Of a stretch of 64,000 nt of DNA, positions 9,403 to 37,902 are shown one piece after another (within the stretch, counting starts at the first letter, position 1; each line of letters begins with the position of its first letter). This DNA is from Phyllobacterium sp. YR531 (GTDB taxonomy: Bacteria; Pseudomonadota; Alphaproteobacteria; Rhizobiales; Rhizobiaceae): the NCBI RefSeq assembly GCF_000282595.1, contig NZ_AKIZ01000001.1, forward strand, positions 1 to 64,000. The letters are read 5' to 3'. A model generated the notes under the pieces. It ran no database searches, was not told the DNA's origin, and saw only the letters and a list, made by a program, of their open reading frames with translations. The position numbers and the translations under genes were made by a program.

Positions 9403-9424
9403 AATACACCATAGCAAACGCCGT

Positions 9425-13437: not shown

Positions 13438-13471
13438 CAGCAATCAGAAAAATTTGCCACAGGTGGGAAAT

Positions 13472-14725: not shown

Positions 14726-16384
14726 CTACATGTTAGCGTAGAAGGGTCCTTCGCCACCCTGCGGCGGCACCCAGTTGATGTTCTGGTTGGGGTCCTTGAT
14801 GTCGCAGGTCTTGCAATGCACGCAGTTCTGCGCGTTGATCACGTAAGTTTCCTCGCCGTCCTTCTCCACCCATTCATAAACGCCTGCCGGACAATAACGC
14901 GTCGAGGGGCCGGCATAGACGTCGTGTTCGGAACGCTTCTGCAACTCCATGTCCTTCACCTGAAGATGCACCGGCTGGTTCTCCTCATGGTTGGTGGAGG
15001 ATAGGAACACCGATGAAAGACGGTCGAAGGTCAGAGCCCCGTCCGGCCTCGGATAGGCGATCGGCTTGTGTTTGGAGGCCGCTTCCAAGCTTTGTGCATC
15101 CGTCTTGCCGTGCTTCAGCGTGCCGAAGAAGGAAAAGCCGAACAGCTGGTTCGTCCACATGTCGAGACCGCCCAGCCCAACGCCGACCAGCGTGCCGAAC
15201 TTCGACCACAGCGGCTTGACGTTGCGCACCCGCTTCAGATCCTTGCCAATATCGCCTTCGCGCCATTCCGCCTCGATCTCCGCCACCTCGTCATGGGCGC
15301 GGCCGACCGAAATCGCCGCGGCGATCTTCTCCGCCGCCAACATGCCCGACAGCACGGCGTTGTGGCTGCCCTTGATGCGCGGCATGTTGACGAAACCGGC
15401 GGAACAGCCGATCAACGCGCCGCCCGGGAAGGTCAGTTTTGGCACCGACTGATAACCGCCCTCAGTGATGGCGCGGGCGCCGTAGGACAGGCGCTTGCCG
15501 CCCTCGAATGTGCCGCCGATCGCCGGGTGGGTCTTGAAGCGCTGGAATTCCTCGAAAGGATAAAGATAGGGGTTCTTGTAGTTTAGGTGGACGACGAAGC
15601 CGACTGCAACGGTGTTGTCTTCTAGATGATAGAGGAAGGAGCCACCGCCGGTCTTCATATCGAGCGGCCAGCCGAAGGAATGCTGCACCAGGCCGGGCTT
15701 GTGGTTCTCCGGCTTGACTTGCCACAGTTCCTTGATGCCGATGCCGAATTTTTGCGGCTCGCGATCCTTGGAAAGGTCGAACTTGGCGATCAGCTGCTTG
15801 GCTAGCGAACCGCGCACGCCCTCGCAGATCAGCACATATTTGCCGTGCAGCTCCATGCCGCGGGTGAAGTTCGGACCCGGTTCGTCATCCTTCTCGATGC
15901 CCATATCGCCGGTGGCGATGCCAATCACCGCGCCTTCGTTATTATAGAGGACTTCCGTTGCGGCAAAGCCCGGATAGATCTCAACGTCGAGCGCTTCGGC
16001 CTTTTCCGCCAGCCAGCGACAGACCAGCCCAAGCGAGACGATATAATTGCCGTGATTATTCATCAACGGCGGCATCATGAAATTCGGCAATCGAAGCGAC
16101 GCAGATGAACCGAGGAAAAGAAACTGGTCGTCCTTCACCTTTGTCTTGAAGGGATGCCCCTCTTGTTCGCGCCATCCCGGCAGGAGTCGGTCAACGCCGA
16201 TCGGATCGACTACGGCGCCGGAGAGAATATGCTCGCCCACTTCCGCGCCCTTTTCAAGAACGACGACCGAAAGCTCCGGATTAACCTGCTTCAGCCGGAT
16301 CGCTGCTGCCAGTCATGCCGGCCCGGCGCCGACGATCACTACGTCGAATTCCGTAGACTCGCGTTCGATTTCAGAAACTTGCAT
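14726..16384 (-). pseudogene. electron transfer flavoprotein-ubiquinone oxidoreductase, disrupted by an in-frame stop
   Basis: ETF-QO passes electrons from reduced ETF to ubiquinone at the inner membrane using FAD and a 4Fe-4S cluster. From ATG 16384 (AGGAGG five bases upstream) the frame spans 552 codons, the normal family length. Codon 24 is TGA (16313-16315), exactly where the third glycine of the FAD motif GAGPAG belongs; the frame continues normally as LAAAIRLKQ. The C-terminal cluster cysteines (CPAG and CVHCKTC) are intact. A GTG at 16240 could restart translation but would lose the FAD-binding loop. It could be a young pseudogene or, less likely, a sequencing error. Third-position GC looks higher than in its neighbours. 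Confidence 0.85.
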
Positions 16385-16416
16385 CGCGTCCTCCTTGGCC
16401 ATCCGCATAACCTGGT

Positions 16417-17472
16417 TCAGTCCAGAGATTTCTCTGTCAGGAACTGCTTCATCAGGTCAGCAATTTTCAGGTTGTTGAGGTCGGAGAACGGGAAATGCGT
16501 ATTGCCCCGAATGCCCAGATCAGGAAGGTGAACGACTATGGCGTCTCCGCCATGCTTGTTCACTGTATTCGCCCAGATCTTCGCCATCTCGAACCGTACG
16601 CGCCATGTGTCGTGACCCGGATTGGACAACGGCTGAGAGGGAATGTTGTCGCCATAGTACATAACGATCGGGATTGTGGTGAACTTCAGAAACTCTTCCA
16701 TCGCAGTGGTTTTGGGGAACAGCATGCCATCGGACGCAGGCATCGGCTCAGGCGCCTCACCTTCTGGAAAAATATAGCCCTCGCCCGGTTCATAAGAGAC
16801 GATCGCACGGACGTTGCTGTTTTTCAGCGCCTCCATCCATCCAAGTCCGCCGCTCTGAGAGTGCGTCACGAGTATCGATGGGCCTATCTTGTCGAGCAGT
16901 GCTGAAACGCCGGCAACTGCGACATCACGGTCGAAAGGGCCCGTATTTGGCGAAATCGAACGCAGATACTGATCAAGCACGGCTGGATCTTTGGAAAACT
17001 GCACGCCATCGAAATAGTTCGGCCACGTTCCTACCCGGAAAATATCAAACCACATCGCGTCGTTCAGATACGGTTCGATCTTCATCTCAACAGTGCTGCG
17101 GCCTGCGCGGCCGCGACGTGGTTGGTCGAGCAGATAGACGCTGTAACCCCATCGCAAGAAAAGTGTCTGAAAGCCTTCTCGCCCGTCTGGCGTTGTTTCC
17201 CAAGTCTTGGCTGTCTGATCCGCTCCATGCCAGAATACAAGCGGATATTTTCTGGCATCGACGGGCTTTTGGTAGAACGCGTAGAGGTGATCGCCATGAA
17301 GAGACGCCTCCCCCTGTTGCAACACAGTGCCGCCGACGGCAAAGCTGCCCTGTTCGGCAATGATGATCGGCTCGAAAGCCGTATTTTCTGCGGCCATAGC
17401 ATCCGTACCCAAAAGCGCCAATCCGATAAGCGAGAGCATCCCCGAAGCTCCTGAAATAATATTCATCGCCAT
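16417..17472 (-). CDS. secreted alpha/beta-hydrolase (esterase-like)
   Basis: A 351-residue protein with an N-terminal signal peptide (hydrophobic run after MAMNIISG, likely cut after AMA). The hydrolase core shows LVFWHGADQTAKTWE near residue 80 (oxyanion region), the nucleophile elbow THSQSGGLG around residue 195 and a late HFPFSD segment that may carry the histidine. Homologues are poorly characterised esterases or lactone hydrolases. ATG 17472 overlaps the preceding gene's stop by ten bases. A periplasmic hydrolase fits a role in preparing a substrate for uptake (inference). Confidence 0.8.
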   Translation of the reverse strand: MAMNIISGASGMLSLIGLALLGTDAMAAENTAFEPIIIAEQGSFAVGGTVLQQGEASLHGDHLYAFYQKPVDARKYPLVFWHGADQTAKTWETTPDGREGFQTLFLRWGYSVYLLDQPRRGRAGRSTVEMKIEPYLNDAMWFDIFRVGTWPNYFDGVQFSKDPAVLDQYLRSISPNTGPFDRDVAVAGVSALLDKIGPSILVTHSQSGGLGWMEALKNSNVRAIVSYEPGEGYIFPEGEAPEPMPASDGMLFPKTTAMEEFLKFTTIPIVMYYGDNIPSQPLSNPGHDTWRVRFEMAKIWANTVNKHGGDAIVVHLPDLGIRGNTHFPFSDLNNLKIADLMKQFLTEKSLD

Positions 17473-18338
17473 GCTCTCTCTTCGATCATTGCAGACATCT
17501 GCAACAAGCGTCGAGCGATCTCCGCGTGCAACCGTTCAACCATCTTGCCTTCGATATTGATGACACCAGCCGTACCGTTTTCCGGAAGATCGAAAGCCGC
17601 ACAGACCTTCCGTGCCCAATCAACTTCCTCGACGGTTGGAGCAAAACTCTCATTGGCAATGGTAATCTGATTTGGATGGATCAGGGTTTTGCCGTCCATA
17701 CCGATTTCGCGGCCGTCCATACACTCCACCTTGAAACCATCGTCATTCCTGAAATCGTTAAAAACACCATCGAGGATATCGAGGCCTGCAGCACGTGCCG
17801 CAGCGACACACTGCATAAGCCAGGGAAGATAACTGGCCCGTCCCGGCTTCAGGGAAACTCGCGTGTCTTTCGCCAGATCGTTCGTGCCGATCACGAGGGT
17901 TGAAAGTTGTGGGAGAATGTCCAGGCGCGCTTCGGCGATTTCGAGAGTGCGCAGCATTGCGGCCGGCGTCTCAAGCATCGCCCAGACCTCAGGGACATTT
18001 CTTCCTTCAAGGCGCGCCGCAATAGCTTGAAGATCTCTAGACGCGCTGATTTTTGGAAACAGGATCGCCATCGGTTCCGCTGCAAGTACAGCAGAGAGAT
18101 CTGCTTCGCCCCAAGGGCTCGAAAGAGCGTTGATGCGCACAACGACCTCTTCCCGTCCGAACCCGCCATGCGACAAGATCTCCACAGCCTTCTGGCGGGC
18201 ATTTTCTTTTTCGCTTGGCGCAATCGAATCTTCCAGATCGACGATGATGACATCGCTTGGCAACGATTTTGCTTTTTCAAGCGCGCGAGCATTGGTCGCT
18301 GGAACATAAAGTGCGCTGCGACGCAGACGGACGGACAT
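17463..18338 (-). CDS. CitE-like HpcH/HpaI aldolase family lyase
   Basis: A 291-residue protein of the citrate lyase beta / malyl-CoA lyase-like family, TIM barrels that cleave or form malyl-CoA-type thioesters with Mg2+. Visible features are RRSALYVPATNARALEKA at the N-terminus, the metal-binding region IIVDLEDSIAP, VVVRINAL, VWAMLETPAAM with the metal-ligand glutamate, and LVIGTNDLAKDT. Stand-alone relatives act on malyl-CoA, citramalyl-CoA or similar. In this cluster it could split a hydroxyacyl-CoA into acetyl-CoA plus a keto acid (inference). Confidence 0.88.
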   Translation of the reverse strand: MSVRLRRSALYVPATNARALEKAKSLPSDVIIVDLEDSIAPSEKENARQKAVEILSHGGFGREEVVVRINALSSPWGEADLSAVLAAEPMAILFPKISASRDLQAIAARLEGRNVPEVWAMLETPAAMLRTLEIAEARLDILPQLSTLVIGTNDLAKDTRVSLKPGRASYLPWLMQCVAAARAAGLDILDGVFNDFRNDDGFKVECMDGREIGMDGKTLIHPNQITIANESFAPTVEEVDWARKVCAAFDLPENGTAGVINIEGKMVERLHAEIARRLLQMSAMIEERAWR

Positions 18339-18392
18339 CGGATTCTCCTATTCTAACGCGGCTTAACTCCACCTGGGCGAAGGACCAGATAT

Positions 18393-19574
18393 TCAGGCCT
18401 TTATGCCCTTTTCCGCATAGGGGCGGTTGTCCACGATGCGCTGATAAGACAGCCGTGTCAGGTCCAGCGCCTCAAGACGGCCAGTGAGGATCAGTTCAGA
18501 AATCGCCCTGCCAGCAGCGGGGGCGTGCTGCAACCCGTGCCCTGAACAGCCGGCGATCACAAAGAAGTTGGAAAGGCCACCCTCCCAACGGCCGATGATG
18601 GCATTCCCGTCGAACACATTCTGCGCGTAGTGCGTTGCCCAAGCGTGCTTAAGGCGAATGGCCTCGAACTTTGGTACGCGCGTGGCGAGCATTGGCCAGA
18701 TATGCTCTTCGAAAGCATCCCAGTTCGGTTCATCGACAAAATTGCCGACCCGGGACATATCGGTGAGACCGGAAAGGAAACCGACACCCTCAGGTCGGAA
18801 ACCAACACCGACCTGATCACGTGTCAGCGGGAGCGGATCGAAAGTCTCATGGCACTCGAAATAATATTGGGTGCGAGGCAAAGGCTGAACGGGCAGGTCC
18901 ATTCCAACCATCTTGGCAACTTTAGCCGCATACAGCCCGGCAGTGTTGACGAAATGGTCAGCGGTAATTTTCTTGCCGTCCGCGAGCGTTACCGAGCGAA
19001 CGAGACTGCCGTCGTGCGCGATATCAACGACCTCACCGTGGATATAGGTTGCGCCGAGGGAGATAGCCTTCCGCCTCAGACCCATCAGCGCTCCATAAGG
19101 ATCGATCCAGCCGTCACTGGGCGAGAATACGGCTCTCGTCACACCTTCATTGCTGATGTCAGGAAAACGCTGCGAAAGTTCCTCCGCATCGAACAGCAAT
19201 GCGTTGACGCCATTGTTGGTTTGGAAGCGATGATTTTCTTCCATGTCAGCAGCCTGCTCAGGCGTGCCGGCGATAAAGAGGTATCCTTGTTTCCAGAAGT
19301 GGAGATCAACGTTGTCGTCGTCAACTTTCATCGACTCGCCAAAATTCGAGTAGAACTGGCTGCCGAATTGCGACATCTGTAGGTTTTCAACCTGGGAAAA
19401 CAACAGTCGAATACCCGCCATCGAAAGAGCGGAAGGCGCTTTTTCGTAGCTCGGATCCTTCTCGATGACGCAAATCCGAAGAGATGGATCTCGTTGCAGA
19501 AGGTGATATGCGGTGCTGCCGCCGGCAAGGGCTCCACCGATAATGATGACATCGTAATCTGTTGCGCGCGTCAT
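18393..19574 (-). CDS. FAD-dependent amine/D-amino-acid oxidase family protein
   Basis: A 393-residue DAO-family flavoprotein. The N-terminal dinucleotide motif is DVIIIGGALAGGSTAYHL, with the ribose-binding glutamate in CVIEKDP. Mid-protein HFVNTAGLYAAKVAKMVG and the C-terminal FFVIAGCSGHGLQHAPAAG match sarcosine/dimethylglycine/glycine-oxidase relatives. Such enzymes oxidise secondary or tertiary amines or D-amino acids and pass electrons to O2, folate-linked partners or ETF. Its position directly before etfA in the same block suggests ETF could be the acceptor (inference). Confidence 0.88.
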   Translation of the reverse strand: MTRATDYDVIIIGGALAGGSTAYHLLQRDPSLRICVIEKDPSYEKAPSALSMAGIRLLFSQVENLQMSQFGSQFYSNFGESMKVDDDNVDLHFWKQGYLFIAGTPEQAADMEENHRFQTNNGVNALLFDAEELSQRFPDISNEGVTRAVFSPSDGWIDPYGALMGLRRKAISLGATYIHGEVVDIAHDGSLVRSVTLADGKKITADHFVNTAGLYAAKVAKMVGMDLPVQPLPRTQYYFECHETFDPLPLTRDQVGVGFRPEGVGFLSGLTDMSRVGNFVDEPNWDAFEEHIWPMLATRVPKFEAIRLKHAWATHYAQNVFDGNAIIGRWEGGLSNFFVIAGCSGHGLQHAPAAGRAISELILTGRLEALDLTRLSYQRIVDNRPYAEKGIKA

Positions 19575-19618
19575 ATGATACAGTTCCCCGGTTTTTGCGC
19601 TTGACTGAAAATTGCAGT

Positions 19619-20542
19619 TCAGAGCTTTTCGGTGAGCTCAGGCACCAAGCTGAAGAGGTCGCCGACCAAGCCGTAATCTGCTATCTGGAAGATTGGAGCT
19701 TCTTCATCCTTGTTGATCGCAACAATGACCTTTGAATCCTTCATCCCGGCCAGATGCTGAATGGCGCCTGAGATGCCAACAGCGATATAGAGCTGAGGAG
19801 CAACCACTTTGCCCGTCTGGCCAACTTGCCAGTCGTTGGGCGCGTATCCACTGTCGACTGCGGCTCGCGACGCGCCGGCAGCTGCGCCGAGTTTGTCTGC
19901 GAGTTTTTCGATCAGATCGAAATTATCTCGAGACCCGACGCCACGGCCACCTGAGACAACGATGCGCGCGGAGCTCAGGTCCGGCCGTTCCGATTTCGAC
20001 ACCTCCTCCGAGACCCAAGAGGACAGACCAGGATCCGCATTGGCCAGCAGAGTCTCGATCGGCGCGGCATGGCCTTCGCCAGCGGCAGTAAAGTTTGCCG
20101 TCCGGATTGTCCCGACCTTGACCTTATCGTTCGACTTGACCGTCTGAATGGCGTTACCGGCGTAGATAGGGCGCTCAAAAGTATCGTCCGAAACAACGCC
20201 GATCACATCCGGAATGATCATGACATCCAGAAGAGCTGCGATCCGCGGCATCACGCTCTTGGCCGAAGCGGTGGATGCGGCAAAAATGTGAGTGAACCCG
20301 TTGAGACCGGAAACCAGCTCCGCCAGCGGTTCCGGCAACCCTTTGGCATATTTTGGGTCGTCCACTAGAAGGACCTTTGAAACGCCTTCCATTTTTGCGG
20401 CCGCAGCCGCAGCATCTCCCACATTCTCTCCCGCAACCAGAACTGTAATCTCCCCGAGCTTCGACAAAGCGCCGACGGCTTTCGCGGTTTGATCCCTACC
20501 CAACTCTGAGCTGTTTATCTCTGCCATGACGAGCGTCTGCAT
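19619..20542 (-). CDS. etfA: electron transfer flavoprotein alpha subunit
   Basis: A 307-residue ETF alpha/FixB protein that binds FAD and carries electrons from acyl-CoA or amine dehydrogenases. The C-terminal FAD domain is clear: [55 protein letters not shown] and [26 protein letters not shown] 20542 shares bases with the etfB stop (TGATG arrangement), so the two subunits are translationally coupled. Length is normal. Confidence 0.95.
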
Positions 20543-21303
20543 CACAGTACTCCTGCCTCATTTTTGAGCTTCGCAATCAGTTCGTCGACGGAAGCAACCT
20601 TGATGCCGCCGGAGCGCGCTTTGGGTTCAGCCGTTTGCTCGACAGTAAGTCGTGGCGCAAGGTCAACGCCATATTCGCTGGCGGACTTCTCTTCGAGCGG
20701 CTTCTTCTTTGCCTTCATGATGTTGGGCAACGACGCATAACGCGGTTCATTGAGCCGCAGATCGGTGGTGACGATCGCAGGGAGCTTCACGCTGACGATC
20801 TGCAGGCCGCCATCGATTTCCCGCGTAACTTGTGCCTTGCCGCCCTCGAGCGTGAGGGCGGAAGCGAACGTCGCCTGCCCCCAGCCAAGAAGAGCGGCGA
20901 GCATCTGGCCCGTAGCGTTCATATCGTTGTCGATGGCCTGTTTGCCCATCAGGACGAGGTCAGGCTTCTCGGTGTCGACAATGGCTTTCAAAAGCTTGGC
21001 GACGGTGAGTGGCTCGATGTCCTGACTGACGTCATCCGAAGCGTGGATGAGGATCGCGCGGTCAGCCCCCATCGCAAGCGCTGTACGAAGCGTTTCCGTC
21101 GCCCCCTTAACGCCGATCGAGACTGCGACAGCTTCGGTAGCGATACCTTTTTCCCGAAGCCGAACGGCTTCTTCGATCGCGATTTCATCAAAAGGGTTCA
21201 TCGCCATTTTGACATTAGCGAGATCCACCCCGCTGCCATCGGCTTTGACCCGAACCTTCACGTTGTAATCCACAACACGCTTTACAGGTACCAGAACTTT
21301 CAA
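20542..21303 (-). CDS. etfB: electron transfer flavoprotein beta subunit
   Basis: A 253-residue ETF beta/FixA protein, the AMP-binding partner of EtfA. Typical features: [19 protein letters not shown] at the N-terminus, [15 protein letters not shown] and [19 protein letters not shown]. The start is most likely TTG 21303: AAGGAG lies six bases upstream and the protein then begins as family members do. A GTG at 21330 would add nine untypical residues. It lies 27 bases after the BKACE gene. Confidence 0.94.
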
Positions 21304-21330
21304 GACTATCTCCTTTAGGCGTTCAGCCAC

Positions 21331-22164
21331 TCAGTCGCGCGTTAGGCCGAGGATCGCCCGCGCCTCCGCGGCGGTTGCTGGATGGCGCCGATATTCGGGG
21401 CAGAGCGAGGTCACTCGAGCGACCAGTTCTGCATTCGATTTCGCCAGGCGCGTCTTGTCGAACTTGACATTGTCCTCAAGGCCTGTCCGGCAGTGTCCGC
21501 CCAGTTCCAGCGCCCAGTGGTTCACTTCTAGCTGGTGACGACCGAGGCCCGCGGCCGTCCAGGTCGCATCCGGAAGGATTTTCCTCAATTCGGAAAGTTC
21601 GAATTCGAGAATTTCGCGTCGGGCCGGTTGAGCATTGCGGACGCCCATAACGAACTGAACATGGGGATTGGGCTTCAGAAGGCCGCGATCGACGAGATCC
21701 TTTGCATTATAAAGCATCGCCAGATCGAAGATCTCGCACTCCGCCTTGACGTTATAGTCCAGCATCCGCTGCGCCAGATCGTCGATGAACGACGGAGGAT
21801 TCTCATTGACGAACGTTGGGAAGTTGACCGAACCTGTCGCCAGCGAGGCCATATCAGGTGACTGGTCGAGCATGCCGCCGCGGGATGCCAATTCTCGACC
21901 CCGGGCGCCCGTGGAATACTGGATGATCATTCCCGGGCAATGCTTTTCAATACCTTCCCGCGCAGACCTGAACACTTCCGGGTCGGAACTCGAATTTTCA
22001 TTTTCGTCGCGGGCATGCATGTGCACAAGCGAAGCGCCGGCCTCGAATGCCTCGTGGGTGCTCTCGATCATTTCCTGCACTGAAATCGGGACAGCCGGTG
22101 TATCTTTCTTTCGAGGCACGGATCCGTTGATCGCAACGGTGATAATGCAAGGCGTTGTTGTCAC
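21331..22164 (-). CDS. BKACE family (DUF849) beta-keto acid cleavage enzyme
   Basis: A 277-residue TIM-barrel protein of the 3-keto-5-aminohexanoate cleavage (Kce) family. Characterised members are zinc enzymes that react a beta-keto acid with acetyl-CoA to give acetoacetyl-CoA plus a shortened CoA ester or, for dehydrocarnitine, betaine. Zinc-ligand motif SLVHMHARDE near residue 47, the VQFVMGVRNAQPA segment and C-terminal GGHCRTGLEDNVKF are present. Known substrates include 3-keto-5-aminohexanoate, 3-dehydrocarnitine and beta-ketoadipate-like acids; which applies here is unknown. It overlaps the SDR gene by four bases. Confidence 0.9.
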   Translation of the reverse strand: MTTTPCIITVAINGSVPRKKDTPAVPISVQEMIESTHEAFEAGASLVHMHARDENENSSSDPEVFRSAREGIEKHCPGMIIQYSTGARGRELASRGGMLDQSPDMASLATGSVNFPTFVNENPPSFIDDLAQRMLDYNVKAECEIFDLAMLYNAKDLVDRGLLKPNPHVQFVMGVRNAQPARREILEFELSELRKILPDATWTAAGLGRHQLEVNHWALELGGHCRTGLEDNVKFDKTRLAKSNAELVARVTSLCPEYRRHPATAAEARAILGLTRD

Positions 22165-22958
22165 AGCTTCAGCTCCGGCAGTTCGTCGTCCACGGGGACG
22201 GTATAGTTGAGATAGGCGCGGCCGCCGTCGGCATAAACCGTTTGCCCGGTAACATAGGAGGCGTCGTCGCTCGCCAGGAACGACACAATGCCCGAAACTT
22301 CGTCGGCGCGACCAACACGGCCCATGGGCGTGCGCGACAGAACGCGGCGGTAGGCGGCCTCGTTCTTGTTCATGCCAAGCGACAAAGGAGTGAGGATCGT
22401 ACCTGGTCCAACCGCGTTCACGCGCACATTCTGCCGGGCAAGTGCGATCGCGAAGATGCGGGTAATCTGATTGATGGCCGCCTTCGAGATGCCATATGGA
22501 ACACGATCAGGGATCACCAGCTCTGCCTGTGCCGATGACATATTGACGATCGAACCGCCCTGTCGCTGCCCGATCATAACTCGGGCAGCTTCCTGTGTAC
22601 CGAAATAACAACCCTTCAGGTTGACGTTCAGAACTCGATCGAGCTCTTCTTCGGTGAGGTCGATCGCCGGGGTCGTGCAGGTGATGCCGGCATTATTAAC
22701 CATGATATCGAGCCTGCCGAACCTTGCCACGACGTCTTCGACGAGCTTTTTGATTTCGGTGCGGATACCCACGTCGCAGCGAATAGCGACGGCACGCTTG
22801 CCGGAGGGATCCAGATCCATCGCGGCAGCTTCGGCCTGCTCCTGATTGATATCGGAAAGAACGACGATGGCTCCATCGGCAAATAGCCTTTCAGCGCAGG
22901 CTTTGCCGATGCCCTGGGCCGCTCCCGTGACGATTGCTACCTTGTTTTCATGTTTCAT
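22161..22958 (-). CDS. short-chain dehydrogenase/reductase
   Basis: A 265-residue classical SDR. Cofactor motif VTGAAQGIGKA at residues 10-20, NNAG near 90, catalytic Ser in VNMSSAQAEL and the YGISK motif (Tyr and Lys) near 160; C-terminal SFLASDDASYVTGQT and DGGRAYL. It probably oxidises a hydroxyacid or hydroxyacyl-CoA to the keto form that the BKACE enzyme, encoded immediately after it, could cleave (inference). It overlaps both neighbours by four bases. Confidence 0.92.
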   Translation of the reverse strand: MKHENKVAIVTGAAQGIGKACAERLFADGAIVVLSDINQEQAEAAAMDLDPSGKRAVAIRCDVGIRTEIKKLVEDVVARFGRLDIMVNNAGITCTTPAIDLTEEELDRVLNVNLKGCYFGTQEAARVMIGQRQGGSIVNMSSAQAELVIPDRVPYGISKAAINQITRIFAIALARQNVRVNAVGPGTILTPLSLGMNKNEAAYRRVLSRTPMGRVGRADEVSGIVSFLASDDASYVTGQTVYADGGRAYLNYTVPVDDELPELKL

Positions 22959-26577: not shown

Positions 26578-27680
26578 TTTGGAAACTCTTCTTCAGGTGA
26601 AACAGATTTTTTCATTTGATCCACGGAGTTCCGCGCTTCCAAGAGAGCCGCAACCACTGTGGACGATAAGCGGATACCTTCCCGACGCGCCTTTTGCCGC
26701 AGGGCTGCGCCGCGAGCTCCCGGCATGCGGGGTGGGTGATTGGCGTCTACCGGTATCGTGTTTTCGATCAAAGCGCTGATCAATGAAATACGGCTTCCGA
26801 CCGCTTCGACTCCTCCGAAGGCGCGGGCATCCATTGCTACAAATAGGTGGCTGACACCCCGCGGGCGGTTAGACCCTTCCTGGGGTACAAGCACCTCGGA
26901 TCCGGGGTGTCCACCAGACAATGCAACGCAAAGTAGCTCTACGAGCAAAGGCAGGATCGTCCCTTTTTCTCCACCGAGCGCTTGCATGGTTCCCGTAAGT
27001 GCCACTTTGGCGTCGCTCGTCGGCAGACCGTTTTTATCGAGTGCCCAATCGAGCGGAATAGCGGTTCCATCGACCGCGGCTTTTCGGATGCGACCGCGAG
27101 AACCGGCGGTTGTGGCGAAGTCGATCAGGAGTGGCGAACCGTTCGGATCTGGAAACCCAGCAGCGATAGGGTTCGTCCCGAACAATGGTGTCTTCGCGCC
27201 TCTCGGAGCCACCGTTGCCGACGCATTGGAAAGAATTAGGCCGACCATCCCCTGGGAGGCCAGATACTCAGCAAAAGCAGACGCCGCCCCAAAATGTGCC
27301 GAGTTACGCACGGCGATTATAGCAGCACCACATTGTCGTGCCCGCACGACCGCCTCGTCACAGGCTTGCAACCCCGCGAGAACACCCGGAGCACAATCCG
27401 CATCCAGAACAGCCGCTGCCCGAAAGATTCCCTCCATGCGCATGGCCGGGCGTGCTTTAAGGGAGCCCGAAGCGATGCCAGAAACATATGAAGGCAGATG
27501 TGCAATCCCGTGACTGTCGATTCCGCTCTCCTGAGCAAAGACCAAGAGAGCGGACATACGCGCAGCGTCCTCCTCCTGCATCCCGGCGTCTGCCAGGATC
27601 GCGGCAACTCGCTCGCCTAGATCTTCGGAAGAAATTAGAGCGCCGACAGCCAAAGCGTTGTCCCCGTTCAAGGCCATCAT
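26574..27680 (-). CDS. malate/L-lactate dehydrogenase (Ldh2) family oxidoreductase
   Basis: A 368-residue NAD(P)H-dependent enzyme of the Ldh2/DpkA family. Members reduce or oxidise 2-hydroxy acids, ureidoglycolate, or the cyclic imines delta1-piperideine- and delta1-pyrroline-2-carboxylate. Catalytic-site segment ESGIDSHGIAHLPSYV near residue 50, IIAVRNSAHFGAA, GTNPIAAGFP and LIDFATTAGSRG are seen. ATG 27680 gives an ATGA overlap with the aminotransferase stop. Beside an aminotransferase, a cyclic-imine or 2-oxo/hydroxy acid substrate is plausible (inference). Confidence 0.87.
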   Translation of the reverse strand: MMALNGDNALAVGALISSEDLGERVAAILADAGMQEEDAARMSALLVFAQESGIDSHGIAHLPSYVSGIASGSLKARPAMRMEGIFRAAAVLDADCAPGVLAGLQACDEAVVRARQCGAAIIAVRNSAHFGAASAFAEYLASQGMVGLILSNASATVAPRGAKTPLFGTNPIAAGFPDPNGSPLLIDFATTAGSRGRIRKAAVDGTAIPLDWALDKNGLPTSDAKVALTGTMQALGGEKGTILPLLVELLCVALSGGHPGSEVLVPQEGSNRPRGVSHLFVAMDARAFGGVEAVGSRISLISALIENTIPVDANHPPRMPGARGAALRQKARREGIRLSSTVVAALLEARNSVDQMKKSVSPEEEFPK

Positions 27681-28618
27681 GTATTCCAAACCGGCGTGAG
27701 CCAGCTCTTTTCCAGATTACCGCGCCCTTCAACGGCATCAAAATAATCCTTTTGAAGCAAAGATGTAACTGGACCCACTGCACCAGAGCCCACAGGGAGC
27801 CTATCTATGGAAATGATCGGAAGAACTTCGGCTGCGGAACCAGCAAAGAATGCTTCATCACTGGCATAGAGCTCGGTGCGATCGACCGCGCGTTCCTCAA
27901 TCGAAATTCCCCGATCCTGTGCCAGGGTCAAAATAGTGTCCCGCGTGATACTTTCAAGGATGCCGCTGGTTACGCTAGGGGTAATGAGCTTGTTTTTGCG
28001 CACAATGAAAATACATGCTCCGGGTCCTTCGCCCACCTTGCCCTCATCATTAAGCATGATGGCGTCGTCGTAGCCGTCGATCTGCGCCTGAAAGCGAGCC
28101 AGCCTGGCGTTGGCGTAATTTGCTCCGCATTTTATGCGCGGCGGAAGAGCGTTATCGGACATGCGCCTCCAGGTAGAGACATGAGCAGCGATACCGCTCT
28201 CCACTTTCTTGCCCCTTGGTCTTGGACCTGCATAGACCATCCAACTGACTGGACCGGTCACATGATGTTCGCCAATGCCGTCGAGATAGGCCGTGGTCCG
28301 GATATGGCAATTTGCGCGATGGTTGTCTGCGCGAAGCAAACCAAGGGTCGCATCGGCAATCGCGTCCATCCTGAACTCAGCCTTGAAACGCAGAAGGCGG
28401 ATCGACTGATCAAATCTTTCCAGATGTTCCTGAAGACGGAAGATATAAAGCTGCCTCTCATCATCGTTCCAGTAGCCACGAAGGCCTTCGAAAACGTTCA
28501 AACCATATCGCATCGCCGGTGACATCAAATGTACCGTGGCGTCGGCAAAGGGTACAGTCGTGCCGTTGACAACCATTTGTCTGGTCTTGGCTGATTCGGT
28601 CGGTAGGGCGTCACTCAT
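27677..28618 (-). CDS. class IV PLP aminotransferase (branched-chain aminotransferase-like)
   Basis: A 313-residue fold type IV aminotransferase. Features: FADATVHLMSPAMRYGLNVFEG at residues 22-43 region, the lysine-bearing segment RIKCGANYANARLA near residue 160, and VGEGPGACIFIVRKN containing the PLP-interacting glutamate, then SGILESITRDTIL. The family includes IlvE, D-amino acid aminotransferase and omega-type transaminases, so the amino donor cannot be fixed. ATG 28618 shares bases with the DUF35 gene's stop (TGATG). Confidence 0.9.
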   Translation of the reverse strand: MSDALPTESAKTRQMVVNGTTVPFADATVHLMSPAMRYGLNVFEGLRGYWNDDERQLYIFRLQEHLERFDQSIRLLRFKAEFRMDAIADATLGLLRADNHRANCHIRTTAYLDGIGEHHVTGPVSWMVYAGPRPRGKKVESGIAAHVSTWRRMSDNALPPRIKCGANYANARLARFQAQIDGYDDAIMLNDEGKVGEGPGACIFIVRKNKLITPSVTSGILESITRDTILTLAQDRGISIEERAVDRTELYASDEAFFAGSAAEVLPIISIDRLPVGSGAVGPVTSLLQKDYFDAVEGRGNLEKSWLTPVWNT

Positions 28619-29034
28619 CACAGGGCTCCGTGGTTCTGTTGTAGCCGAAAGCGAGGGATGGACACGCCTTCTTCGGACTCAATTGAAAGGGCAACCGGCG
28701 CATCCGGGGTAAGTTTTTTGCCGGCTTCGGAATCGATTACATTGGTGAGTAGGCGAGGCCCCTCGTCGAGCTCGACAAGCGTGACATCGTAAGGCACCCG
28801 CGCCTTCAGGTGGTCGGTGTAAGCGGTGTGATAAACGACCCAGGAAATCACACGGCCGCGACCGCTGGCCTCGCGCCATTTTGGATCCGCTGCCAGGCAT
28901 TTTGGGCAGTTTGCCCGCGAGGGAAGCCACGTATTTCCACAGGCCTCGCAGCACTGGTAGCGCAGCTTACCTTCAGCAAGCCCGTCCCAATATGGCCGGT
29001 TGACGTCGGTTATGTTCACTGTTGGGAAGCTCAA
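28618..29034 (-). CDS. DUF35 zinc-ribbon/OB-fold acyl-CoA-binding protein
   Basis: A 138-residue protein with an N-terminal zinc ribbon (two CxxC pairs in YQCCEACG and NCPKC, residues 27-45) and a C-terminal OB-fold (RGRVISWVVYHTAY, VPYDVTLVELDEGPRLLTNV). DUF35 proteins partner thiolase-like enzymes and bind the CoA part of the substrate, as in archaeal acetoacetyl-CoA thiolase/HMG-CoA synthase and the steroid Ltp2-ChsH2 aldolase. The start is TTG 29034, with GGAG upstream, overlapping the thiolase-like gene's stop as TTGA. Confidence 0.9.
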   Translation of the reverse strand: MSFPTVNITDVNRPYWDGLAEGKLRYQCCEACGNTWLPSRANCPKCLAADPKWREASGRGRVISWVVYHTAYTDHLKARVPYDVTLVELDEGPRLLTNVIDSEAGKKLTPDAPVALSIESEEGVSIPRFRLQQNHGAL

Positions 29035-30161
29035 AGCGGTTCTCCTAAAACAAGGGTTGCATGTGTATGCATCGAGCCGCCCTGGTTTGAGATGATGCAG
29101 GCACCCGGATTCTTCACCTGGAGTCGGGCGTCACCACGCATCTGCCTGACGCCTTCGATAATTAACTGCATACCTGGTGTTCCGCTTTCTGATAGAAGAC
29201 CTCCGGATGTGTTGAGCGGCAGCCAGCCGTCAATTCCGAGACCTTCAGCCAGCGCTTTCGAACCCGCCTGTCCACGCGGTGCCAGACCGTAGTCCTCTAA
29301 GGTCTGAAGAACCGTCACGGTGAAGCAGTCGTAGATTTGAGCAACGCCAATATCAGAAGGTGCAATGCCGGCCATCTTGAAAGCGGCCCTGGCAGAATCC
29401 TCCGCCTTGGTCCGAAGCAGGTCCTCACGCAGATGGACATCCCAGCTCTCCTGACCCTGACCAAGGCCAAGAATCGGAACTGCCGCGTGCCGACCAAGCT
29501 GTTTCGCACGCTCAACACTCATCAGAATGACAGCGGCACCTCCGTCTGAAACCAGGCAGCAATCATCTCGCCGCAGCGGCTCAACGACAAATGGTCCACT
29601 CAGATAAGCGTCCATCGTCAATGGCATGCGAAGATGCGCGTCGGGATTTTCACTGCCATGCTCGCGTGTCTGAACGGCGACAATACCAAATTCCTCATCG
29701 CGAGGCTGGTAGCGGTTTCGGTACGCCTGATGGATCATCGCGTAGCCGGCCGCTGTCGAGTACCAGCCGACCACAGCGTCATCTCCGCGGGGCCGATGGT
29801 AGACGGCTCTCGATCCCGTGCGCGCTGTGTCTCCGTAGCACACGAGCGCCGTATCGATCATGCCTGCCTCGATGGCCATTGCGGCGTAGGTGATGAGGCC
29901 GATATTGGCTGCCCCGCCTTGATCCAGGGAGCAGCCGATGGTCGGCCGGAGCCCAAGCGCTTCGGACACTTTCTGACCATAGAGGATGGAAGGCTCCGAG
30001 TTCGCCATCTTGACGAACAAACCGTCGAGCATATCCTTGGAGATACCCGCATCAAAAATCGCGTTTCGCGCGGCTTCGACAATCAGGTCGATACGATCGC
30101 GGCCAGGATGCTTGCCGTACCGGGTGTTTCCGACCCCTGCTATGACGACTTTCCCGCGCAT
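29031..30161 (-). CDS. thiolase-like protein (SCPx/Ltp type) lacking the usual catalytic Cys/His
   Basis: A 376-residue protein of the lipid-transfer/SCP-x thiolase branch. The fold is evident (IAGVGNTRYGKH, ALVCYGDTARTGS, AQIYDCFTVTVLQTLEDYGL, LPLNTSGGLLSESGTPG). Where thiolases carry the nucleophilic cysteine this protein reads SLDQGGAANIG, and the GHP histidine motif is SGTPG. Together with its adjacent DUF35 gene this resembles Ltp2-type retro-aldolases, which cleave a beta-hydroxyacyl-CoA without a thiolase cysteine, more than a true thiolase (inference). Its ATG directly follows the CaiB-type gene's stop codon, after AAGGGGGT. Confidence 0.85.
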   Translation of the reverse strand: MRGKVVIAGVGNTRYGKHPGRDRIDLIVEAARNAIFDAGISKDMLDGLFVKMANSEPSILYGQKVSEALGLRPTIGCSLDQGGAANIGLITYAAMAIEAGMIDTALVCYGDTARTGSRAVYHRPRGDDAVVGWYSTAAGYAMIHQAYRNRYQPRDEEFGIVAVQTREHGSENPDAHLRMPLTMDAYLSGPFVVEPLRRDDCCLVSDGGAAVILMSVERAKQLGRHAAVPILGLGQGQESWDVHLREDLLRTKAEDSARAAFKMAGIAPSDIGVAQIYDCFTVTVLQTLEDYGLAPRGQAGSKALAEGLGIDGWLPLNTSGGLLSESGTPGMQLIIEGVRQMRGDARLQVKNPGACIISNQGGSMHTHATLVLGEPL

Positions 30162-31355
30162 CTAGATTACCCCCTTCTCAGTCAGCCGTTCCAACGACTT
30201 GGCGTCGAGCCCGATCTCACCGTAAATTCGCTCGTTGTCGGCCGCATATGTTGGACTGCAACGGTAATTCGGCTGCGGCGTATCAGCGAACCGGATTGCG
30301 GAGCGCGGAAGCGTTATGTTACCAAATGCAGGATGGTCGACGTCTATGAGCGCTCCGCGTTCATGCAGGACGGGATCGGCGATCACTTCGGTAAGATCTC
30401 GCACGGGCGCTGTCGGGACTCTGGCTGCTTGCAGCAACTCCAACAGTTCCTGCTTGCCTTTTTCCCGTGTGAAGGTGGCAACAAGCTGGTCCACCATTTC
30501 CATGTTGGCAACCCGATCCTTGTTCTTGGCCGTCGACGGATCGTTGATGAGGTCTGGACGACCCATCGCGCGCGCCAAGCCTTCCCAATGGTTGTCGTTG
30601 TTGCAAATGATCGCCACGTAGCCGTCCCGTGAAGGGTAGACGTTATAGGGGCAAAGGCTCAGTCCCCCATGTCTATTGCCTGTACGCAAGGGGATGTCGT
30701 TACGCGCTCCGAACGTCATTCCGATATTGGAAGCCATCGTGACGTAAACTGCTTCAAGCATCGACACGTCGATGCGCGCTCCCTCGCCGGTCGTTGCACG
30801 ACGGTACAAAGCTGTGGAGATCGCACCAAAAAGATGAACGCCTCCAAGGAAGTCACACAGGGCTGCGCCGGATTTGGTCGGTGGACCGTCAGGGTATCCG
30901 GTCACACTCATCACACCTGACATTGCCTGGATGGTCAAATCCATCGCCATGTAGTCCCGGTACGCACCGTCTTGACCATATCCGGAACCGCTGGCGAGAA
31001 TAATGTCGGGCTTCGCCGCGCGCAGCGCCTCGTACCCTATTCCGAGCCGGTCAATAACGCCGGGAGCATAGTTCTCGACCACCACGTCCGCATTTGCGAG
31101 AAGCTTGAAGAAAATCTCGCGTCCCTCGTCTGACTTCAAGTTCAAAGAGACAGAGTCCTTACAGGCATTCAGCATCGCAAAAGGTACAAAAGCCCCTGAG
31201 CTTGCATCGCGCCGACGGAGGAATTCACCTCCGATTGGCTCTACCTTGATTACCTCGGCGCCAGCCATTGCCATCAGAAAGGTGGCATATGGTCCATTAT
31301 AAATCTGTGTGAGATCAAGCACTCTGATCCCAGTCAGCGGTTGACCCATGGTCAT
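30162..31355 (-). CDS. class III CoA-transferase (CaiB/BaiF family)
   Basis: A 397-residue CoA-transferase that moves CoA between carboxylates through an aspartyl-CoA intermediate. Family features: GIRVLDLTQIYNGPYATFLM, GAEVIKVEPIGGE, ADVVVENYAPGVIDRLGIGY and the catalytic aspartate expected in YMAMDLTIQAMSG (about residue 160). ATG 31355 lies after a purine-rich GGGGGGAATGAA; a frame upstream is open but overlaps the hydratase gene. It probably activates the carboxylate entering beta-oxidation by the neighbouring dehydrogenase and hydratase (inference). Confidence 0.92.
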   Translation of the reverse strand: MTMGQPLTGIRVLDLTQIYNGPYATFLMAMAGAEVIKVEPIGGEFLRRRDASSGAFVPFAMLNACKDSVSLNLKSDEGREIFFKLLANADVVVENYAPGVIDRLGIGYEALRAAKPDIILASGSGYGQDGAYRDYMAMDLTIQAMSGVMSVTGYPDGPPTKSGAALCDFLGGVHLFGAISTALYRRATTGEGARIDVSMLEAVYVTMASNIGMTFGARNDIPLRTGNRHGGLSLCPYNVYPSRDGYVAIICNNDNHWEGLARAMGRPDLINDPSTAKNKDRVANMEMVDQLVATFTREKGKQELLELLQAARVPTAPVRDLTEVIADPVLHERGALIDVDHPAFGNITLPRSAIRFADTPQPNYRCSPTYAADNERIYGEIGLDAKSLERLTEKGVI

Positions 31356-31356
31356 T

Positions 31357-32130
31357 TCATTCCCCCCGGAATTCCGGCACACGCTTTTCGGCAAAAGCTT
31401 CCTTAGCCCGCTTCGTATCTTCCGAATGATGCAAGATCCGGTTCACAAACTGCTCCATTCGCAGGCCCTCAGAAAGGCTCATGTCGAGCGCGCGCACCGC
31501 CAATTCCTTGGCGGCCTGAACTGCGAGAGGAGCGTTCTTCTTAATGCGATTGGCGAGGTCGTGGGCCGTATCCAGCATCTTGTCTCGTGGAACGACGCGG
31601 TTCACCAAGCCCCATCTTTCTGCCGTCGCAGCATCCATAGTATCGCCGAGCAGCAACATCTCCATTGCTATGGCGTAGGGCAGTTGTTTCATAACGCGCT
31701 GCGTGCCGCCATTGGCAGCAATGATTCCGCGTTTCACTTCGGAGATGGAAAACGTTGCCTCTTCGCAAGCGACACGGATATCGGTGGCCATCAGAAGGGT
31801 CATACCGCCGCCGACACACGCACCATTCACTGCGGCGATGACGGGCTTCCAGATCTCCAGCCCGCGATTAAGAAGGCTGTCCTTTTGCGTCAGCCAGACC
31901 TCTGAGAGCGGTTGAGCCCGCCCAACGAAGGATTTGATATCCGCTCCCGCGCAAAATGCCTTGTCCCCGGCACCCGTTATAACTGCAACACGGACGTCGG
32001 CGTCGTCTCGGACCCTGATCCAAGCCTGTGACAACGCAGCATAGTGCTCGGAGTCAAGGGCATTGCGCCGTTCTGGGCGATTGATTGTGATGGTTGCGAT
32101 GCCGTCGTGTAGATCAAATTCGATTGCCAT
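31357..32130 (-). CDS. enoyl-CoA hydratase/isomerase family protein
   Basis: A 257-residue crotonase-fold protein: INRPERRNALDSEHYAAL near the N-terminus, the oxyanion-hole strand FCAGADIKSF around residue 62, AAVNGACVGGGMTLLMATDI near 105 and EVKRGIIAANGGTQRV. The GGG oxyanion motif is present, and a glutamate lies in the FSISEVKRG region, as in hydratases. It would hydrate the enoyl-CoA made by the adjacent acyl-CoA dehydrogenase. Only four bases separate it from that gene. Confidence 0.9.
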   Translation of the reverse strand: MAIEFDLHDGIATITINRPERRNALDSEHYAALSQAWIRVRDDADVRVAVITGAGDKAFCAGADIKSFVGRAQPLSEVWLTQKDSLLNRGLEIWKPVIAAVNGACVGGGMTLLMATDIRVACEEATFSISEVKRGIIAANGGTQRVMKQLPYAIAMEMLLLGDTMDAATAERWGLVNRVVPRDKMLDTAHDLANRIKKNAPLAVQAAKELAVRALDMSLSEGLRMEQFVNRILHHSEDTKRAKEAFAEKRVPEFRGE

Positions 32131-32134
32131 GTTC

Positions 32135-33331
32135 TTACCCCCGAAGCAGTTCGCGTGCGAGTACCATACGGTGCACTTCCGAAGGTCCCTCCCCGATGCG
32201 CTTGATGCGCAATTCGCGGTACCAGCGCTCTATCGGCATCTCTTTAGCGACACCCATCGCACCGAAGATCTGGACAACGCGATCGATGACACGTCCCGCC
32301 GTTTCAGTGGAAAAGACTTTGGCAATCGACGCATCGGTCTTGATGTCTTTTCCGAGGTCGCCGTTCCAGGCCGCTTGGTATGTCAGCAGCCTTGCGGCCC
32401 TCAGTTCCATCTCGCTATCAGCGATCATCCATTGGATTGCCTGCTTGTCGGCAAGCCGCGATTTGTGGACGTTGCGCTCACGGGCCCAATCAATGGCGAG
32501 ACGCAGGGCCTCCTGAGCAATACCGATTACTGCTGCCGAGTACGGGACGCGTGCATGAACAAGCCATTTCTGGCAGATCGCAAAGCCCTGGCCTTCTTCG
32601 CCAAGGCGATTTGCTGCTGGAACGCGGACGTTATCAAACGTCAGTTCATAGGGTGAATAAGAACGGATAACCCCGATCTCGCGATAGGTAATGCCAGGAG
32701 TTTCCTTGTCGACGATGAAGGCGGTGATGCCTTCGCCTTTTCCGGCTTCTCCAGTCCGGGCAAACACGATGCCCCAATCAGCGTTGCCGGCTGCGGTAAT
32801 CCAAAGCTTCGATCCATTGATGATGTACTCGTCGCCGTCACGAACAGCACGGGTTTGGATTTTGTGTCCCGGATCCGAACCACCGGAAGCTTCGGAGATG
32901 GCGACGAAGTTCTTCTTGCCTCTCTGAATGCCCTGCACACCGTATTTCTGCCGCTGATCCTCAGCGCCAAGCCAAATCACAGATGGAGGATCAATCCCAA
33001 ATGCGCCACATGCAGGAACGTAAGCGCCCATGCGGCACTTGGCTGCTTCCTCCGCAACAATCACTTGTGCGAGCAGGCTAAGGCCGCCGCCGCCGTATTG
33101 TTCGGGTGATGCCAGGCACCACAACCCGAGAGTTTTTGCTTTCGCCTGCAACGCTTCGAGTTCCTGAGGTGGCAACTCGAAACAATCGTGGGGCTGCTTT
33201 TCCTCGATTGGCCGGACCTGGTCATTCATGAAGCGCTGCACAGTATCGCGCAGCATCATTAAGTCTTCTGGCATCTCCCACGCGCCGGCGGGAAAGACAG
33301 TGTCGTCGATGGCAGTCTGTATGGTGGGCAT
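32135..33331 (-). CDS. acyl-CoA dehydrogenase
   Basis: A 398-residue FAD flavoenzyme of the acyl-CoA dehydrogenase family: CLASPEQYGGGGLSLLAQVIV, FVAISEASGGSDP (FAD/substrate loop), the middle-domain GSKLWITAAGNADWGIVFA, and QIFGAMGVAKEMPIERWYR, whose KEMPIER glutamate aligns with the usual catalytic base of medium-chain enzymes. The end EGPSEVHRMVLAREL is typical. It passes electrons to ETF, encoded in the same cluster. It is the first gene of the cluster, so its promoter lies in the gap shared with the Aap-like importer. Confidence 0.92.
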   Translation of the reverse strand: MPTIQTAIDDTVFPAGAWEMPEDLMMLRDTVQRFMNDQVRPIEEKQPHDCFELPPQELEALQAKAKTLGLWCLASPEQYGGGGLSLLAQVIVAEEAAKCRMGAYVPACGAFGIDPPSVIWLGAEDQRQKYGVQGIQRGKKNFVAISEASGGSDPGHKIQTRAVRDGDEYIINGSKLWITAAGNADWGIVFARTGEAGKGEGITAFIVDKETPGITYREIGVIRSYSPYELTFDNVRVPAANRLGEEGQGFAICQKWLVHARVPYSAAVIGIAQEALRLAIDWARERNVHKSRLADKQAIQWMIADSEMELRAARLLTYQAAWNGDLGKDIKTDASIAKVFSTETAGRVIDRVVQIFGAMGVAKEMPIERWYRELRIKRIGEGPSEVHRMVLARELLRG

Positions 33332-33440
33332 ACCTTCATCCTATGATGGTGGCGGCAACGTTTCGTGCTGTCGCCGTTTCCAAATCCATCCCACAGGATC
33401 CGTCGCACCACAACACAAAATATCAATTGTCGATGCATAA

Positions 33441-33455: not shown

Positions 33456-33491
33456 AAAATAGGAAAAAATATACATGGGCTCTTCAATATT

Positions 33492-34651: not shown

Positions 34652-34754
34652 CATGTATCGTTCCGCTGAAATGCGGCGAGTGTAACAGTCCCCCTTTTCT
34701 TTGCACGATCGCCAAATAAGGCGATCGTGCCACCTCAAAGGCTATTGGACCGAT

Positions 34755-37849: not shown

Positions 37850-37902
37850 CGTAGCGAGAAGCGCTTCGTATCCCATTGCTACAAAACGCGCTCGAGGTCG
37901 AA

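Follow-up and report, generated by a model that had tools for sequence, protein, structure and literature searches.

A conserved gene cluster in Phyllobacterium sp. YR531 and its possible role in channelling a nitrogen-masked carboxylate towards 3-oxoadipate cleavage

The stretch of DNA analysed here, hereafter the window, comprises the first 64,000 nucleotides of contig NZ_AKIZ01000001.1 of Phyllobacterium sp. YR531. Between positions 14726 and 33331 it carries seventeen catabolic genes, the core of which recurs in genomes of other families, accompanied by the genes of an Aap-like importer and of an IclR-family regulator. This core comprises ten genes, namely those of an acyl-CoA dehydrogenase (ACAD), a crotonase-fold hydratase (ECH), a CaiB-type CoA-transferase, a 'thiolase', a DUF35 protein, an aminotransferase of the AT4 family, an Ldh2-family oxidoreductase, HyuA, HyuB and a beta-keto-acid cleavage enzyme (BKACE). 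We tentatively propose, at somewhat less than even confidence, that they specify a single catabolic route served by a dedicated importer and regulator, leading from a nitrogen-masked (lactam-type) carboxylate to the cleavage of 3-oxoadipate.

All seventeen open reading frames (ORFs) were found on the minus strand (17/17), and every product scores above the cut-off of one or more Pfam families; Table 1 gives them in order from position 33331 down to the 14726 end. With the listed starts, the successive junctions from g01 to g17 measure 4, -38, 0, -4, -4, -13, -4, -4, -4, -4, 0, -4, 44, 54, -10 and 176 bases, an exact 4-base overlap thus occurring at seven of the sixteen, and g17 standing 176 bases away from g16. 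The overlaps of 38 and 13 bases reflect over-long TTG starts: the ATG at 31355 leaves a gap of 1 base, and the ATG at 27680 gives a 4-base overlap. The G+C content of the cluster (56.8%) differs little from that of the rest of the window (54.8%). The first-pass annotation, which had described seventeen tightly packed catabolic genes on one strand, is borne out in this respect; its 'thiolase-like' gene lacks the thiolase nucleophile and is better taken as a retro-aldolase, and the gene it left unnamed, g17, encodes an electron-transfer flavoprotein (ETF)-quinone oxidoreductase. The packing of the seventeen genes is real, but the conserved unit is smaller, consisting of g01-g11 with the importer and the IclR gene: g12-g14 have counterparts beside the cluster of one of five relatives, and g15-g17 in none of the fetched loci. 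As far as the searches reach, these known enzyme families have not been described in this combination, as had been supposed. The literature search, which covered few subscription journals and leaves absence unproven, brought up no characterised operon of this enzyme set, the only related system among the papers brought up being the caprolactam pathway (PMC6061476).

The ten core catabolic genes co-occur with the genes of the substrate-binding protein, two permeases and the IclR regulator in four genomes of other families (G552, G582, G969 and G1029). Given this co-occurrence, the gene set is far beyond chance, and the synteny of HyuAB, BKACE, the DUF35/thiolase pair and CaiB that the first-pass annotation had put forward as a check is present in all four. 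A fifth relative, G901, has eight of the ten genes; those of AT4 and BKACE are not on its 26-kb contig (the genome is 70% complete). The distribution is patchy. Within the genus, HyuA was matched at 1e-180 in one of 20 genomes, that of the window itself, and in none of its 19 relatives. An aldolase search of 297 family genomes at 1e-60 gave 14 matches, the window and six relatives standing at at least 55% identity. A contiguous ACAD-ECH-CaiB-aldolase-DUF35 module at 45-69% identity was found in five of these six (G123, G021, G131, G133 and G019), each with distant HyuAB genes (24-35%) in the vicinity, adjacent and divergent in four and about 12 kb off in G019. The G019 neighbourhood also holds BKACE-like (32%) and short-chain dehydrogenase/reductase (SDR; 29%) genes, and in G131 a BKACE-like gene (30%) lies further away from the module. 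In the sixth, G127, ECH, aldolase and DUF35 are contiguous, the nearby CaiB (32%) and ACAD (40%) are distant homologues, and no HyuAB occurs in 30 kb.

Among 397 genomes of the order, HyuA had 114 matches at 1e-120, including its own genome. Of the neighbourhoods of the nine best matches besides its own, two (G552 and G582) contain the whole core, importer and IclR included, and a third (G324) contains HyuAB with AT4 (45%) and distant ACAD, ECH and CaiB (25-30%); in the remaining six, no other core catabolic gene accompanies HyuAB at 1e-15. HyuB had 11 matches at 1e-140 among 385 genomes of the class, again including its own genome, and five neighbourhoods were examined: the whole core is present in G969 and G1029 and part of it in G901, the contig ends within that of G1043, and of the core only HyuAB is present in G730. 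The 398 genomes drawn from the phylum yielded no match besides the window's own genome. The central 8 kb of the cluster has no near match among plasmids, and a megablast of the whole cluster against plasmids, which returned mainly ETF-quinone oxidoreductase and ETF matches, was discarded, the three loci read having unrelated catabolic surroundings. On a Bradyrhizobium plasmid, HyuAB is accompanied by no more than distant CaiB and ECH. A scan of genome contigs with HyuA added one distant locus having HyuAB and no other core gene, and the loci reached by tblastn with the aminotransferase differ in content, one of them having an adjacent Ldh gene.

Four loci of related content deserve separate mention. 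L080 (G730:C40, 7457-15038) has one HyuA gene followed by four tandem HyuB-like genes, the last truncated by the contig end, an odd stoichiometry. L063, on the Shinella plasmid paSHIWSC3, is an analogous yet different cluster, HyuB-HyuA-TPP (thiamine pyrophosphate enzyme)-SDR-AT4-MaoC, near which lie thiolase/DUF35 genes, two ACAD genes and an amino-acid importer permease/ATP-binding gene. L062, on a plasmid of Hydrogenophaga sp. BPS33, has ACAD-ECH-aldolase-DUF35-CaiB flanked by two copies of IS1071; a tripartite tricarboxylate binding protein is encoded there too, HyuAB is not. In L060, on NT-25 plasmid 3, the five-gene module is accompanied by an IclR gene and by genes of a tripartite tricarboxylate transporter, with no HyuAB or BKACE in 29 kb.

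From its residues, the g04 product is better read as a Sal-type retro-aldolase than as a thiolase, because it has no nucleophilic cysteine and carries a YDCF motif, both in 12 of 12 aligned proteins (an alignment that left out G969, G1029 and G901). The sequence at the thiolase cysteine position is DQGG, with glycine at the nucleophile, YDCF stands where Ltp2 has YDHF, and the pair of catalytic cysteines of SCP-2 thiolase is lacking. The second-best PDB match is Ltp2 (6ok1). In CtSal, which is reported to free acetyl-CoA by retro-aldol cleavage, Tyr302 and Cys304 of the YDCY motif are described as essential (PMC12329534). The position of Ltp2 Tyr344 is occupied by glycine in g04; CtSal likewise lacks this tyrosine and uses Cys304, which is matched here. 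Counted along the alignment, CtSal Gln347 and Gln352 correspond to leucine and glycine, the glutamine pair not being conserved. The DUF35 partner retains the four zinc-ribbon cysteines in 9/9 aligned proteins.

ACAD has the GEG segment with the expected catalytic glutamate in all ten aligned proteins. The catalytic residues of enoyl-CoA hydratase are Glu144 and Glu164; in g02 the equivalent of Glu164 is present and threonine stands at the equivalent of Glu144, in 15/15 aligned proteins, against glutamate in each of the five solved relatives displayed, so that the two-glutamate signature of the crotonase-family hydratases is missing. Feruloyl-CoA hydratase-lyase, which performs a hydration followed by a retro-aldol reaction, has a small hydroxyl residue at the Glu144 position. 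No 3-hydroxyacyl-CoA dehydrogenase of the usual Pfam families is encoded among the seventeen genes, an absence that the aldolase step would explain, though the SDR could in principle serve.

HyuA retains the aspartate pair of the CapAB ATP site (equivalents of D11 and D295) and HyuB the four CapB metal ligands (D41, H99, D102 and H124), positions being assigned by counting from the residues given for CapAB in PMC8453981. Against N-methylhydantoinase/caprolactamase, HyuA scores 314/288 bits and HyuB 156/118 bits, versus 208/176 and 73/44 bits against the carboxylases. Their scores in the NCBIfam caprolactamase equivalog, 434.4 bits for HyuA and 148.2 for HyuB, lie far below its cut-off of 1000. 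Acetone and acetophenone carboxylases are no better match, with scores below those of the hydrolases and only two HyuAB-type subunits among the seventeen genes.

AT4 passes two IlvE cut-offs of NCBIfam (298.1 vs 279 and 288.7 vs 245.55 bits). The canonical motifs of the branched-chain aminotransferases, YxR and GTA, are absent from it: HxR is found in 6/6 aligned proteins, and GSA in five of them (the window and four relatives), the Shinella protein having GTG. BKACE belongs to the 3-oxoadipate type, its activity being predicted from a score of 440.7 bits, above the cut-off of 350, in NF053568 (3-oxoadipate:acetyl-CoA acetyltransferase). Among the neighbourhoods of six plasmid-borne BKACE relatives, three (57-64% identity) contain protocatechuate or hydroxyquinol genes, and a further one (56%) lies beside a dioxygenase, a CoA transferase and a benzoate symporter. 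BKACE groups are listed in PMC4922564 and PMC12133276; PMC6365646 treats BKACE on other substrates, with no 3-oxoadipate in its main text. Carnitine-like betaines, which the first-pass annotation had listed among the compounds to try in transcriptomics, are disfavoured and were set aside because BKACE is of the 3-oxoadipate type. Plain adipate or caprolactam catabolism was set aside because it has no need of the aldolase.

The divergent amino-acid importer of the first-pass annotation is real (33365-37849), and it shares with the Aap/Bzt general amino-acid importers the ABC family, large permeases and the expected carboxylate arginine. In structures of the LAO/GlnH type, this arginine binds the carboxylate and an aspartate binds the alpha-ammonium group. 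The arginine of the T..R segment is present in 10/10 aligned binding proteins. In contrast, the aspartate expected of Aap/Bzt proteins, present in all four own-genome paralogues, is lost in all six cluster proteins, being replaced by valine in the window and by tryptophan in five relatives. The retained arginine and the lost aspartate point to a nitrogen-masked acid rather than a free amino acid, and thus support the earlier suggestion of a nitrogen-containing carboxylate as substrate. The 294-base intergenic region contains two copies of TCATATARTGAC, 51 bases apart, with no other match in the 64 kb at up to one mismatch. The expected number of matches is 0.17, and two copies occurred in one of 100 shuffles, for a pattern picked after the sequence had been seen; as operators, the copies are candidates that are suggestive only. 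A promoter-like site overlaps one copy, such sites being about as common as in shuffled sequence (12 vs 8.8). No 9-mer common to at least three of the six upstream regions was found, the relatives carrying other AT-rich palindromes.

From the gene content, its conservation and the catalytic-residue patterns we infer an order of steps, a lactam and a substrate class. The importer would bring in a carboxylate that contains nitrogen but no free alpha-amino group, and CaiB would convert the imported acid to its CoA thioester. ACAD would then form the enoyl-CoA, passing electrons to ETF and ETF-quinone oxidoreductase, the single-glutamate hydratase would add water to the beta carbon, and the aldolase/DUF35 pair would release acetyl-CoA by retro-aldol cleavage. 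HyuAB would open a lactam at the expense of ATP, AT4 would remove the amino group so freed to give 3-oxoadipate, and BKACE would convert 3-oxoadipate and acetyl-CoA to succinyl-CoA and acetoacetate. SDR, Ldh2 and DAO would ready the substrate. In the version with the fewest gaps, the carbon attacked by water bears the nitrogen, so that the retro-aldol step itself would form the lactam; CaiB, ACAD, ECH, aldolase/DUF35, HyuAB, AT4 and BKACE would each be used once and without a gap. The altered hydratase could then be explained, since the double bond it hydrates would be electron-rich and of the enamine type. To take one example, 5-oxopyrrolidine-2-acetate might arise from a pyrrolidine-2,5-diacetate-like acid and be converted to 3-aminoadipate and then to 3-oxoadipate. 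Should this be so, it would amount to a new opening of saturated N-heterocycles, in which an acetate arm beside the nitrogen is oxidised as its CoA thioester and hydrated, a Sal-type aldolase expels acetyl-CoA to leave a lactam, and HyuAB opens the latter with ATP, pyrrolidine-diacetate acids, as expected from tropane-type alkaloids, thereby reaching 3-oxoadipate without an oxygenase; we consider this extension rather unlikely. No bacterial gene cluster for tropane or calystegine catabolism turned up among the papers listed by the literature search, and these compounds are retained as an example only. The joint absence of AT4 and BKACE from the G901 contig fits enzymes acting in sequence, though in a single incomplete genome.

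Several points weigh against this proposal. We know of no precedent for the lactam-forming step. Pyroglutamate, also a gamma-lactam, is a known substrate of the related lactamase OplAB. On gamma-butyrolactam, however, OplAB is reported to show only traces of activity, against strong activity on delta-valerolactam (PMC11033972). AT4, above the IlvE cut-offs, could take alpha-amino acids, but 3-aminoadipate carries its amino group in the beta position. Neither Ldh2, which all five relatives have, nor the SDRs can be placed firmly, and the TPP enzymes of the relatives suggest a 2-oxo-acid step of which the scheme makes no use. The five-gene module, or most of it, is also found without HyuAB and BKACE and so does not depend on a lactam. 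Two of the six BKACE neighbourhoods are uninformative, and AT4 and BKACE may lie elsewhere in the 70%-complete G901 genome.

Some of these points would be met if HyuAB opened a lactam to an L-alpha-amino diacid, AT4 gave the 2-oxo acid, and a TPP decarboxylase with aldehyde dehydrogenase (in the relatives) or Ldh2 delivered a shortened acid to the CoA module. The IlvE-like scores of AT4 accord with this route, as do the class I/II aminotransferase beside the AT4-less G901 cluster and the aldehyde dehydrogenase at that of G969. TPP enzymes adjoin the clusters of G552, G582 and G969, with a more distant one at G901, and 5-guanidino-2-oxopentanoate decarboxylase ranks second among the curated matches of the two that were scanned (G582 and G901), below its cut-off; the aspartate lost from the binding protein also suits a lactam substrate. 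However, the origin of the 3-oxoadipate for BKACE is left unexplained, the window's own genome has no close copy of the TPP enzyme (best 33%), and AT4 carries HxR and GSA instead of YxR and GTA, so that we regard the route as unlikely, if worth keeping in mind. A different function for HyuAB is conceivable, since acetone and acetophenone carboxylases are among its relatives: retro-aldol cleavage of a beta-methyl acid would yield a methyl ketone such as levulinate, which an ATP-dependent ketone carboxylase could turn into the 3-oxoadipate cleaved by BKACE, thus joining aldolase, HyuAB and BKACE without a gap. The better scores of both subunits against N-methylhydantoinase and caprolactamase, the want of a third subunit among the seventeen genes, and the idleness of AT4 and of an amino-acid-type importer make this improbable.

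It can also be asked whether the seventeen genes are a single unit. The eleven core genes might serve one pathway and g12-g17 (ETF, DAO, the CitE-like lyase, the hydrolase and ETF-quinone oxidoreductase) another one merely downstream, in keeping with the gaps of 44, 54 and 176 bases in this part and with the lack of counterparts of g12-g17 in the fetched loci of G552, G582 and G969. On the other hand, DAO (58%) and ETFA/ETFB flank the G1029 cluster, three DAO genes stand by that of G901, in the window ETF beta follows immediately on BKACE, and ACAD requires an electron acceptor; we accordingly give this division a low probability. The G1029 cluster is further flanked by a class II aldolase and a 2-hydroxyacid dehydrogenase, and the g10 SDR homologue lies upstream of the TPP and importer genes in G552 and G582 and beside IclR in G1029. 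A last alternative, that HyuAB opens an oxindole, with CaiB, ACAD and ECH acting on aminophenylsuccinate and a retro-aldol step giving isatinate, recalls the HyuAB-like IaaCE proposed for 2-oxoindoleacetate in anaerobic indoleacetate degradation (as cited in PMC8453981). It appears very improbable, as no oxygenase or anthranilate genes occur among the seventeen and BKACE would be left without a substrate from within the cluster.

Table 1. Genes of the cluster, divergent importer and regulator, and candidate operators (percentages are identities).
Feature	Positions	Strand	Basis and relatives
g01 acyl-CoA dehydrogenase (core)	32135..33331	-	Pfam; 70-75% in G552, G582, G969, G1029, G901
g02 crotonase-fold hydratase (core)	31357..32130	-	Pfam; 72-77% in five main relatives; Glu164-equivalent present, Glu144-equivalent Thr
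g03 CaiB/class III CoA-transferase (core)	30162..31355	-	Pfam; 63-67% in five relatives; ORF opens 31394, ATG 31355
g04 putative thiolase-fold retro-aldolase, YDCF motif (core)	29031..30161	-	PF22691; 67-70% in five relatives
g05 DUF35/ChsH2-like zinc-ribbon OB protein, putative aldolase partner (core)	28618..29034	-	Pfam; 53-59% in five relatives
g06 class IV aminotransferase AT4, IlvE-like (core)	27677..28621	-	Pfam, NCBIfam; 55-57% in four relatives having AT4
g07 Ldh2-family oxidoreductase (core)	26574..27680	-	Pfam; 45-48% in five relatives; ORF opens 27689
g08 HyuA, ATP-binding subunit, ATP-dependent lactamase/carboxylase family (core)	24505..26577	-	Pfam, residue alignment; 57-60% in five relatives
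g09 HyuB, metal-binding subunit (core)	22955..24508	-	Pfam, CapB metal ligands; 62-69% in five relatives
g10 SDR oxidoreductase (core)	22161..22958	-	Pfam; 61-66% in G552, G582, G1029; 42% in a fourth relative
g11 BKACE, 3-oxoadipate:acetyl-CoA acetyltransferase type (core)	21331..22164	-	NF053568; 75-78% in G552, G582, G969, G1029
g12 ETF beta (accessory)	20542..21330	-	Pfam; ETFB 68% beside G1029 cluster
g13 ETF alpha (accessory)	19619..20545	-	Pfam; ETFA 49% beside G1029 cluster, interrupted by contig end
g14 DAO-family flavoprotein amine oxidase/dehydrogenase (accessory)	18393..19574	-	Pfam; 58% in G1029
g15 CitE/HpcH-like C-C lyase (accessory)	17463..18338	-	Pfam
g16 alpha/beta hydrolase (accessory)	16417..17472	-	Pfam; signal-peptide-like N-terminus by eye
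g17 ETF-quinone oxidoreductase (accessory)	14726..16240	-	Pfam; second copy, 78% identical, on contig C38
Substrate-binding protein, Aap-like ABC importer	33626..34651	+	ORF opens 33365; ATG 33626 probable start
ABC permease 1	34701..35939	+	Pfam; 35-38% in relatives
ABC permease 2	35936..37024	+	Pfam; 42-53% in relatives
ABC ATPase	37076..37849	+	68-69% in G969 and G901
IclR-family regulator	37876..38700	+	nearest curated families BhcR and PcaR/PcaU/PobR, both below cut-off; 38-41% in relatives
Candidate operators, two TCATATARTGAC copies	33442-33453, 33493-33504		divergent intergenic region

The cluster is read as plasmid-borne on account of the genes at 48326-63062 of the window, namely a conjugation operon running from TrbI to TrbB, the acyl-homoserine-lactone synthase gene traI, which passes its curated cut-off, and repABC, an arrangement known from Ti-type plasmids. 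The trb region is about 77% identical to those of Agrobacterium plasmids, including the 214-kb plasmid of A. fabrum C58, presumably its Ti plasmid. RepC occurs on contig C1 and on three further contigs of this genome. Among the matches listed for 18 relatives, those of the flanking DNA are all short and diverged. Elsewhere in the window, positions 9513-14254 hold a carboxylesterase gene and a second amino-acid-type ABC importer, oriented toward the end of the operon, and positions 262-9417 encode two sugar-isomerase-like TIM barrels, a GFO/IDH/MocA oxidoreductase, a sugar-type importer and two neighbouring LacI regulators. An RND efflux pump with a membrane-fusion protein stands beside the IclR gene (38908-43865), together with a 216-residue ORF without Pfam match, and a siderophore-type importer (45237-48054) is near EitA and EitC, below their curated cut-offs.

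If the proposed pathway is correct, a conserved, patchily distributed catabolic pathway would be added to those of the alphaproteobacteria, and the pairing of a thiolase-fold retro-aldolase with DUF35 would move beyond steroid metabolism, coupled to BKACE and an ATP-dependent lactamase. The database records that name such an aldolase 'acetyl-CoA acetyltransferase' or 'thiolase family protein', three of which were seen, could be corrected. With the enzymes named, candidate intermediates obtainable and the importer offering a direct handle on the substrate, the annotation problem posed by HyuAB, Ldh2 and AT4 becomes testable.

Among known systems, the caprolactam degradation of Pseudomonas jessenii comes close, as it is described to proceed through an ATP-dependent HyuAB-type lactamase, followed by transamination and beta-oxidation (PMC8453981, PMC6061476). 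It differs in that HyuA and HyuB fall well short of its caprolactamase family and in the retro-aldolase and BKACE, which are not described in the available parts of these reports. The aldolase pair resembles Sal, with its DUF35 partner Shy, and Ltp2-ChsH2 in the thiolase fold, the DUF35 partner, the YDxF motif and the missing nucleophilic cysteine, and CtSal also in its tyrosine and cysteine. Unlike these steroid retro-aldolases, it has no steroid genes among the seventeen around it, nor the Ltp2 tyrosine or the CtSal glutamine pair, and the hydratase is of the crotonase type, that of Shy being of the MaoC type. The anaerobic indoleacetate (iaa) system similarly follows a HyuAB-type hydrolase with CoA transfer and beta-oxidation-like steps; the present cluster, lacking a mutase or Mo-hydroxylase among its seventeen genes, has an aldolase, AT4, Ldh2 and BKACE instead. 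With the protocatechuate and hydroxyquinol operons it shares a BKACE of the same Pfam family and a similar final step, whereas no ring-cleaving dioxygenase is found among the seventeen genes, and 3-oxoadipate would here arise by another route.

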